Shown here in pieces: positions 30,777-32,943 of a DNA stretch of 64,000 nt. A model generated the notes under the pieces. The model did not search any database, was not told where the DNA came from, and worked only from the letters and a program-made list of their open reading frames with translations. Source of the stretch: Halobaculum gomorrense (GTDB lineage: Archaea; Halobacteriota; Halobacteria; Halobacteriales; Haloferacaceae); NCBI RefSeq assembly GCF_900129775.1, contig NZ_FQWV01000001.1, forward strand, positions 207,780 through 271,779, written 5' to 3'. Position 1 is the first letter of the stretch. Every line of letters begins with the position of its first letter. Made by a program: the position numbers and the translations under genes.

Positions 30777-31157
30777 ATGAAACGGGTCGTCTCCACCGAC
30801 GAGGCGCCGGCGGCGGTCGGCGCGTACAGCCAGGCGACGACGAACGGCGACGTGCTGTTCACGGCGGGGCAGATCCCGCTCACGCCTGACGGCGAACTAA
30901 AGGACGACGCCCCGATCGCCGAGCAGACCGAGCTCGCGCTCGACAACCTCCTCGCGATCGTCGAGGAGGCGGGCGCGGACGCCTCGGACGTGCTGAAGAC
31001 GACGGTGTTCCTCGCGGACATCGACGACTTCGAGGAGATGAACGAGACGTACGCCGGCTACTTCGAGGAGGAGCCGCCCGCGCGCTCGGCCGTGCAGGCG
31101 GGCGCGCTCCCGAAGGGCGTCGGCGTCGAGATCGAGGCGGTCGTCGACGTGTCGTAG
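30777..31157 (+). CDS. ridA: RidA family enamine/imine deaminase
   Basis: 126 residues from ATG 30777 (MKRVVSTDEAP), the family length. The trimer-interface and active-site blocks are GAYSQATTNGDVLFTAGQIPL, DDFEEMNETYAGYF and PARSAVQAGALPKGVGVEIEAV, the Arg in PARSAV being the catalytic one. RidA hydrolyses 2-aminoacrylate and 2-aminocrotonate formed by PLP dehydratases such as IlvA, giving 2-oxoacids. Placement 0.5 kb from ilvA supports this pairing. A GATTTATGA box lies about 30 bp before the start. The small gene downstream begins 4 bp after its stop. Confidence 0.95.
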   Translation: MKRVVSTDEAPAAVGAYSQATTNGDVLFTAGQIPLTPDGELKDDAPIAEQTELALDNLLAIVEEAGADASDVLKTTVFLADIDDFEEMNETYAGYFEEEPPARSAVQAGALPKGVGVEIEAVVDVS

Positions 31158-31161
31158 GCCG

Positions 31162-31365
31162 GTGTCGCGCGAGCGGTCTGCGCTGCTGTGGGGCGCGATC
31201 GGCCTGTTGGTCGTGCTTGTCGGTGGGCAGGCGCTGGTGCTCGTCGGGCCGGGGCTCCCGTTCGGGTTCGCGGGGCTGTTCGCGCTCGCGGTGCTCGTGG
31301 GCGTCGTCGTCGCCGCGGCGTCGTACGGTCTGGAGCATCGACTGACGCGGAAGGGACAGGCTTAA
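31162..31365 (+). CDS. Small two-helix membrane protein
   Basis: 67 residues from GTG 31162, only 4 bp after the ridA stop, so co-transcribed. Two hydrophobic helices (ALLWGAIGLLVVLVGGQALVLV and GLFALAVLVGVVVAAASYGL) lead to a basic end, HRLTRKGQA. No family recognised. tRNA-Ser follows 28 bp downstream. Confidence 0.7.
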   Translation: MSRERSALLWGAIGLLVVLVGGQALVLVGPGLPFGFAGLFALAVLVGVVVAAASYGLEHRLTRKGQA

Positions 31366-31393
31366 AACTCACAGCGGGGTAGGATCGGTGCGA

Positions 31394-31475
31394 GCCAGGA
31401 TGGCCGAGTGGTAAGGCGCACGCCTGGAAAGCGTGTTCCCCTATGGGATCCAGGGTTCAAATCCCTGTCCTGGCG
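31394..31475 (+). tRNA. tRNA-Ser(GGA)
   Basis: 82 nt without encoded CCA. The acceptor stem is GCCAGGA/TCCTGGC, the discriminator is G (31475), the T-arm is CAGGG-TTCAAAT-CCCTG, and the anticodon GGA lies in CTGGAAA (about 31425-31437). The long variable arm GTTCCCCTATGGGATCC marks it as class II, and with anticodon GGA as serine (UCC/UCU). Its 21 3'-terminal bases are repeated three times downstream. Confidence 0.97.
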
Positions 31476-32250
31476 GTTCTGACGCGATGACAACGTGAGG
31501 AGCGACGGGTGAGCGACGCGAACCCGGAGTCTCCGAACCGTCATCGCGTGAAGCTCGTACGCAGGGATTTGAACACAGAAGTCGCAGCGCCGAGCGGAGC
31601 GAGGCGACCGTCTTCAGGAGTTCAAATCCCTGTCCTGGCGTCGTTTTCGCGCGAGCAACACACGCGAGCACCGTGTAGCGTGTGCGAGCGACACCGCGAG
31701 CGCGAACGACTTGTGTGACTGGGATTTGAAGTAGACGAGTCGCAGCCCGCGCAGCGAACGGAGTGAGCGAGCAGGACCGTCTCGGCGTGATTCAAATCCC
31801 TGTCCTGGCGTACTTCTGACGGCGCCACACCGCGAGCGACGCGAGCCGTGGCTCCGTGAAGCTCGTACGCAGGGATTTGAACACAGAAGTCGCAGCGCCG
31901 AGCGACGGACGGTCGAGCGAAGCGAGACCCACGAGCGAGGCGACCGTCTTCAGGAGTTCAAATCCCTGTCCTGGCGTTTCTGACGGCGCCACACCGCGAG
32001 CGACGCGAGCCGCGGCGCCGTGACTCCTCGTCTCGGCTCGAACCCGCGGTCTTCGAGACGGCCGGTGCCGCGGGGGAGACCGCGAACGCCCCTCGCCCTC
32101 GTCCAGTCTCACCCGCTGCGACCGCACCGCGCCCACGGCCTCCCCAGCCGACTCGCTCGTCGCTCGCGGCGCTCGCGACTCGTTCGTCCCTCGCGCGCGT
32201 CCGGCCGCGACGGAGCGCGGCCGGCACGCGCCATCCGCAGCCCGTCGACC
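31476..32250. repeat. tRNA-Ser trailer: three ~166-bp units ending in tRNA 3'-end copies
   Basis: Units span 31476-31640, 31641-31810 and 31811-31976. Each ends with the last 21 bases of tRNA-Ser including the discriminator (31620-31640, 31790-31810 with one mismatch, 31956-31976). Each also holds an inverted copy of its T-arm part, CAGGGATTTGAAC, at 31562-31574 and 31870-31882 (partial in unit 2, 31719-31730), giving a 13-bp stem. A second stem per unit differs in sequence yet stays paired: ACGCGATGAC/GTCATCGCGT, CACACGC/GCGTGTG, ACGGCGCCAC/GTGGCTCCGT, and in the tail ACGGCGCC/GGCGCCGT. No credible gene lies here. From about 32040 to 32250 there is GC-rich spacer in which I see nothing more. 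Confidence 0.9.
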
Positions 32251-32943
32251 TCAGTCGTCCGCCGAGGGCGCCGAATCGGGCGCGTCTGCCAACAGCGACT
32301 CGGCGTACCCCTCAAGCATGGTCTCCACGTACTTCGCGACCACGTCCACCTCGACGTGCACGGGGTCGCCGACCGCCTTCTCCGAGAGCGTCGTCAGCTC
32401 GTACGTCGTCGGGATGATCGCCACGTCGAACTCGTCGTCGCGCTTCTCGGCGACGGTCAGGGAGACGCCGTCGAGCGCGACCGACCCCTTGTCGACGACG
32501 TAGCGGCCGAACCCCTCGGGAACGGAGAACGTGAAGCGCCAGTCCTCGCCGACCCGCTCGATCCCGGTGATCTCGGCGGTGGTGTCGACGTGCCCCTGCA
32601 CGACGTGGCCGTCGAAGCGGCCGTCCGCGGCGAGCGCGCGCTCGATGTTGACCGCGTCGCCCTCGCGGAGGTCGCCGAGGTACGTCTTCGCGACCGTCTC
32701 GGCTGCGAGGAACACGGAGAACCACGAGCGGTCGTCGCCCGGCGCCGCGTCTTCCGCGTCCTCCGGGTTGCCCGCGTCGCGCTCGCCGAACTCCTCGACG
32801 GTGAGGCAGACGCCGCTGACGGCGATCGACTGGCCGTGATGGAGGTCGTCGAGCCCGTCGACGTCGACGCGCAGGCGGAGTCCCTCGGGCGTCTCTTCGC
32901 GCCCGATGACCTCGCCGGCGGTCTCCACGATTCCGGTGAACAT
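32251..32943 (-). CDS. ribE: Riboflavin synthase (alpha subunit, bacterial/eukaryal type)
   Basis: 230 residues starting MFTGIVET, the invariant start of this family. Two lumazine-binding barrels are visible: VSGVCLTV (first) and GHVVQGHVDTTAEI with LDGVSLTVAEK (second). It dismutates two 6,7-dimethyl-8-ribityllumazine molecules to riboflavin. An acidic insertion (about 60-75, DAGNPEDAEDAAPGDD) between strands of barrel 1 is a halophilic elaboration. Most methanogens use the unrelated archaeal RibC, so this is the bacterial-type enzyme, as known in haloarchaea. Confidence 0.95.
   Translation of the reverse strand: MFTGIVETAGEVIGREETPEGLRLRVDVDGLDDLHHGQSIAVSGVCLTVEEFGERDAGNPEDAEDAAPGDDRSWFSVFLAAETVAKTYLGDLREGDAVNIERALAADGRFDGHVVQGHVDTTAEITGIERVGEDWRFTFSVPEGFGRYVVDKGSVALDGVSLTVAEKRDDEFDVAIIPTTYELTTLSEKAVGDPVHVEVDVVAKYVETMLEGYAESLLADAPDSAPSADD

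Follow-up and report, generated by a model that had tools for sequence, protein, structure and literature searches.

Candidate tRNA-end-specific hairpin repeats arrayed behind tRNA genes of halophilic archaea

Behind the tRNA-Ser(GGA) gene of Halobaculum gomorrense, three tandem units each end in a copy of the tRNA's own 3' end. Based on the sequence of this array, found in a 64,000-nucleotide stretch of the genome (hereafter the window, whose numbering we follow), and on its comparison with tRNA loci of other halophilic archaea, we propose with moderate confidence that the units belong to a family of small non-coding hairpin repeats that is specific to tRNA 3' ends, has arms templated by the tRNA, and forms recombining arrays. 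The units share one anatomy and are associated with tRNA genes; the inner stem of the type-2 cores covaries, and arrays at orthologous tRNAs have gained, lost, and rearranged units. Moreover, cores of the same type stand behind different tRNAs, each with the arms of the local tRNA.

The features of the array are listed in Table 1. The initial annotation had described the tRNA, three further copies of its end, and inverted T-arm copies inside the units, and its coordinates are correct throughout. The 3'-terminal 21 nt of the tRNA recur intact in units 1 and 3 (21/21 each) and with one difference in unit 2 (20/21), which gives units of 165, 170, and 166 bp when measured as the spacing of these copies, and each unit holds one inverted T-arm copy. 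The near-constant spacing that had been remarked upon applies to this array (165-170 bp) but not in general, as units across the H. gomorrense genome range from 79 to ~226 bp. When folds were compared with those of shuffled sequences, z-scores were -4.9 for the hairpin and -3.9 for the spacer of unit 1, -4.5 for the hairpin of unit 3, and a weaker -1.3 for unit 2. The core of unit 3 differs in that a second hairpin (GGTCGAGCGAAGCGAGACC) is nested within the loop of a core of the unit-1 type. At gathering score, Rfam detects nothing in the region besides the tRNA. The flanking open reading frames presumably encode a threonine dehydratase, RidA, riboflavin synthase, and a DUF502-like membrane protein, and no integrase gene was seen among the reading frames on either side, as named from sequence knowledge.

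Table 1. Features of the array behind tRNA-Ser(GGA) in H. gomorrense (positions within the window)
Feature	Position	Strand	Remarks
tRNA-Ser(GGA), host tRNA of the array	31394-31475	+	ARAGORN; RF00005, 63 bits
Unit 1	31476-31640	+	spacer hairpin ~31476-31555; left inverted arm 31562-31574
Unit 1, continued	type-3 inner core 31575-31619; right arm (tRNA 3' end) 31620-31640	+	
Unit 2	31641-31810	+	spacer; left arm 31717-31730; type-2 inner core 31731-31789; right arm 31790-31810
Unit 3	31811-31976	+	spacer; left arm 31870-31882; right arm 31956-31976
Unit 3 inner core, type 3 with extra nested hairpin	31883-31955	+	
Trailing spacer remnant (degraded fourth spacer)	31977-32023 (about)	+	96% identity to unit-3 spacer

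The general anatomy emerged from the tRNA loci of H. gomorrense, which were located with RF00005 and then read one by one. From 5' to 3', a unit consists of a spacer, a left inverted T-arm, an inner hairpin core, and the cognate tRNA 3' end. Units usually start with a T-rich stretch, and the GC-rich spacer that comes next can in many cases be folded into a hairpin. The left arm is the reverse complement of the T-loop and the 3' strand of the T-stem of the preceding tRNA, and in some units (Tyr, Leu-GAG) it extends into the acceptor stem; the inner core measures ~25-75 nt; and the right arm is the tRNA segment from the T-loop through the discriminator base (~21 nt). Three main core types, drawn up by eye from the H. 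gomorrense genome alone, can be distinguished: type 1 (GAAGCAGGGAG...CGACCGTGGTTC), type 2 (GAAGTAGAC...GGCGTGGTTC), and type 3 (GAACACGGAAG...CGTCTTCAGGAGTTC). The type-1 consensus folds into a long outer stem with two G-G mismatches and an A/GA internal loop. The left arm is poor (≤8/12, against a shuffle mean of 7.1) in 22 of 80 units of the genus. In cases where the right arm departs from the tRNA sequence, the left arm agrees with the tRNA (17) at a similar frequency as with its partner arm (21); judged from these sequences, the arms look copied from the tRNA. Because the arms track the tRNA, compensatory changes in them do not demonstrate selection on RNA, and we rejected that argument for the outer arms.

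Some loci depart from this layout. A compound unit behind tRNA-Arg-CCG of H. gomorrense carries two cores in succession, first one of type 2 and then a type-1-like one, and lacks the middle arms. Behind tRNA-Phe in another genome, the unit contains a partial second tRNA-Phe copy whose T-loop is broken by a hairpin, a possible intermediate. Finally, two tRNA-Val 3' ends behind tRNA-Val-CAC enclose a 696-bp segment with 11 nt of flank in common; this segment is gene-sized and may be a true small integrated element.

The tRNA-end copies in H. gomorrense are not due to chance. Within 700 nt, 18 of its 42 tRNAs are followed by a copy of their 3' end (at least 18 of 21 nt); the corresponding counts for the same 42 tRNAs were 0 on the upstream side, 0 once the downstream sequence had been shuffled, and 0-2 with the end of a different tRNA as query. 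Likewise, of 41 matches to the exact type-1 pattern across 84,980 GTDB species genomes, 40 fell in halophilic archaea (Halobacteria and Actinarchaeum-type genomes). A match in Prevotella was discarded as chance, having no upstream tRNA and arms that do not match. Under a strict test that called for a cognate end (at least 15/21) at most 700 nt behind a tRNA, 35 type-1 matches passed, at 31-217 nt behind the tRNA, and about four more were added by eye: two slightly under threshold (L082, L115), one behind an apparent intron-bearing tRNA-Trp (L118), and one behind a tRNA-Lys end at the locus edge (L092). Their tRNA hosts include Arg, Met, Leu, Gly, Glu, Lys, Ser, Thr, and Val. For type 2, 24 of 30 core loci pass the strict test and ~28 do so by eye, those that fail being mostly degraded or preceded by a tRNA that ARAGORN missed. 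Within the halophilic order, the strict type-1 pattern occurs in 21 of 146 genomes (17 of 57 genera) and type 2 in 24 of 146, and core patterns read backward as a control returned 0 matches in searches of the order's genomes. Behind tRNAs, core matches always lie in tRNA sense. Independently of any core pattern, an own-end copy was found at 14 of 29 tRNA genes sampled at the Leu loci of ~30 genomes, and at 7 of 30 tRNAs in Actinarchaeum.

Overall, the question raised by the initial annotation, whether the unit always follows a tRNA, can be answered for two core types, nearly all matches of which lie directly behind one. The array is one instance of a family that extends through the genome and the halophilic order, and the annotation's suggestion of a self-propagating or structured element gains support from units that are haloarchaea-wide, stand almost always behind tRNAs, and covary in the inner stem.

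Outside cellular chromosomes the picture is sparse. The three core patterns gave 0, 6, and 0 matches in IMG/VR, and the six are unrelated sequences with no nearby tRNA; we rejected a viral origin on the grounds that this database holds no genuine copies of the three patterns. A search of a phage collection with the unit-1 hairpin gave no match, and a plasmid collection gave one weak match, on a 0.8-Mb replicon of Natronorubrum bangense. There, a core-like sequence (85%) is intergenic at ~823149-823209 of NZ_CP031306.1; no tRNA is listed at this position, and the gene table of the replicon is without any RNA genes.

The cores themselves show signs of constraint. The inner helix of type 2 forms 125 of 128 pairs against a shuffle mean of 95, and none of 10,000 shuffles did as well, in a comparison that takes the sequences as independent and leaves relatedness uncorrected. 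Change in this helix is compensatory, with C-G, G-C, A-U, and G-U all occurring at a single position. Conservation of the core exceeds that of the spacer in six of six orthologous groups, and strongly so in five (for example, 0.96 vs 0.48 at Ser-GGA), a contrast that is overstated insofar as spacers may also differ by module exchange; in the Val-TAC group all parts are ~95% identical. Conservation at orthologous loci could reflect host function rather than mobility. One form this might take is a functional RNA trailer like that of E. coli RtT, co-transcribed with the tRNA and cut at its tRNA-like 3' end by tRNase Z, with selection acting on the hairpin RNA or on its effect on tRNA processing or termination. 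Covariation of the inner stem, the constant tRNA-sense orientation, the conservation of core over spacer at single-unit orthologous loci (Gly-CCC, Lys-CTT), and an annotated E. coli rttR that stops at the tRNA-like 3' end of the repeat all speak for such a trailer. On the other hand, about half of the tRNAs have no units behind them and congeners vary; the T-rich stretch right after the tRNA may terminate transcription; and the surplus of G-U over A-C pairs that an RNA should show is weak (10 vs 4), too weak for the strand asymmetry of wobble pairs to tell RNA from DNA. We regard the trailer as a serious though rather unlikely account of the whole. Within the hairpin-repeat family that we propose, it is possible that a unit has an RNA role following co-transcription with the tRNA.

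Comparison of orthologous loci reveals how labile the arrays are. At the Ser-GGA locus, ten congeners carry 0-3 units in which spacers and core types are variously combined. At Arg-GCG, the order is tRNA-A-B-A' in H. gomorrense, tRNA-B-A' in two congeners, and different again in others, which indicates that units can be gained or lost cleanly between tRNA ends. In the Arg-GCG array of one genome (L156), units 1 and 3 have identical hairpins and differing spacers, so that hairpins seem to be homogenised separately from spacers. Related cores are also found behind different tRNAs: the cores of Ser-GGA unit 2 and Tyr unit 2 of H. gomorrense are 92% identical while their arms fit Ser and Tyr, respectively; those of Ser-GGA and Ser-CGA share 89-91% and those of Lys, Val, and Ser type 1 share 85-88%; and Leu-CAA and Leu-TAA have near-identical units in common. 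The nearest relative of 32 of 65 cores is nevertheless found at the same tRNA in another species, and much of the distribution is thus vertical; transposition between two closely related genomes is not caught among the genomes compared. In a few units, at Gly-CCC, Val-CAC, and Tyr, 17-31 nt of the flank that follows the tRNA reappear beyond the unit, suggesting that tandem duplication is involved.

Such duplicated flanks, together with arms that track the tRNA and pseudo-tRNA pieces within some units, are what one would see if the units were a neutral by-product of serial tandem duplication of the tRNA end by unequal recombination, followed by quasi-palindrome (template-switch) correction, with no mobile core at all. 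We consider this improbable in view of inner cores that are conserved across families and across different tRNAs, and of units that are confined to the downstream side. Under the tRNA-end-specific hairpin repeat that we favor, a core reaching a tRNA would join at the T-loop, at about position 53/54, and both arms would be templated by the resident tRNA: its end would be duplicated to give the right arm, and fold-back (strand-switch) copying would make or correct the left. Recombination between identical tRNA ends would then let arrays grow and shrink while the tRNA stays intact, and the mover of the core may be a dedicated enzyme or merely replication and repair.

The initial annotation had also entertained scars of ordinary attachment sites, a reading that is unsupported: the units contain a conserved core and an inverted arm, which are not expected of scars, no integrase adjoins the array, and none of the ten congeners carries, within the stretch fetched, an intact integrated element with the same ends at Ser-GGA. 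An improbable relative of this idea is an integron-like or integrase-mediated system in which a tyrosine recombinase would insert spacer-plus-hairpin cassettes behind tRNAs by recombining the T-arm (attB) with the hairpin, which would act as a (single-stranded) att site; the common segment, which runs from the T-loop to the 3' end of the tRNA (as in many integrase sites), the cassette-like reassortment of spacers and cores, and the bulged, covarying hairpins would suit it, but the units have no gene, the Ser-GGA array has no integrase beside it, IMG/VR has no genuine copies, att recombination yields no inverted copy of the target, and the arms differ at every tRNA.

Among known systems, the closest in anatomy are the 178-bp tyrT/tyrV repeats of E. 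coli, the source of RtT RNA (RF00391, rttR). Like the haloarchaeal units, they stand in tandem behind a tRNA, each closes with the last 19 nt of that tRNA, and an inverted arm (GGGGAAGGAT ... ATCCTTCCCC) precedes the inner part. In E. coli MG1655 (1286900-1288300), the inner part between GGGGAAGGAT and ATCCTTCCCC holds another tRNA-like piece. The E. coli repeats differ in that their core sequence is unrelated to the haloarchaeal cores, and they were examined behind tRNA-Tyr only. The RF00391 covariance model, which finds the E. coli units, has no match at positions 31000-32500 of the window even at E ≤ 10; the array therefore resembles RtT repeats in anatomy and is not a member of their family.

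Other short palindromes offer partial parallels. REP/BIME sequences, which are moved by RAYT (TnpA_REP) transposases, resemble the units in being short, bulged, repeated non-coding hairpins; they differ in being scattered between genes, with arms that are not matched to a tRNA. For the GC clusters of yeast mitochondrial DNA, we know of no tRNA-end specificity or host-templated arms. These clusters are mobile short palindromes (PMC4478555) and, like the units, are tiny and apparently move without a gene of their own. The tRNA attachment sites used by archaeal tyrosine recombinases are reviewed in PMC8371274; the 3' ends of tRNAs are usual sites for integrases. Integron cassette arrays and tRNA att sites share with the units an arrayed arrangement in which each member is closed by a hairpin or att-like repeat, whereas the haloarchaeal units have no cassette gene, no adjoining integrase, and an extra inverted copy of the target. 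The open-access literature yielded no account of a haloarchaeal tRNA-end repeat family, and "new" is provisional in that the check covered open-access text.

More tentatively, we suggest that the units may represent an undescribed class of mobile element, in which gene-less hairpins colonise tRNA genes, have both ends rewritten to the host tRNA, and so multiply into arrays without destroying it; E. coli tyrT would be a possible bacterial counterpart. If this is true, a hitherto unknown repeat resides at tRNA genes throughout an archaeal order, and it is the target that dictates its ends. To our knowledge, target-dictated ends occur in no transposon, integron, or retroelement. The arrays would then provide a concrete, testable system for the gene-less spread of short palindromes and may account for the old puzzle of the tyrT repeats in E. 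coli, and the annotation of haloarchaeal tRNA trailers, tRNA fragments, and integration sites would be affected.
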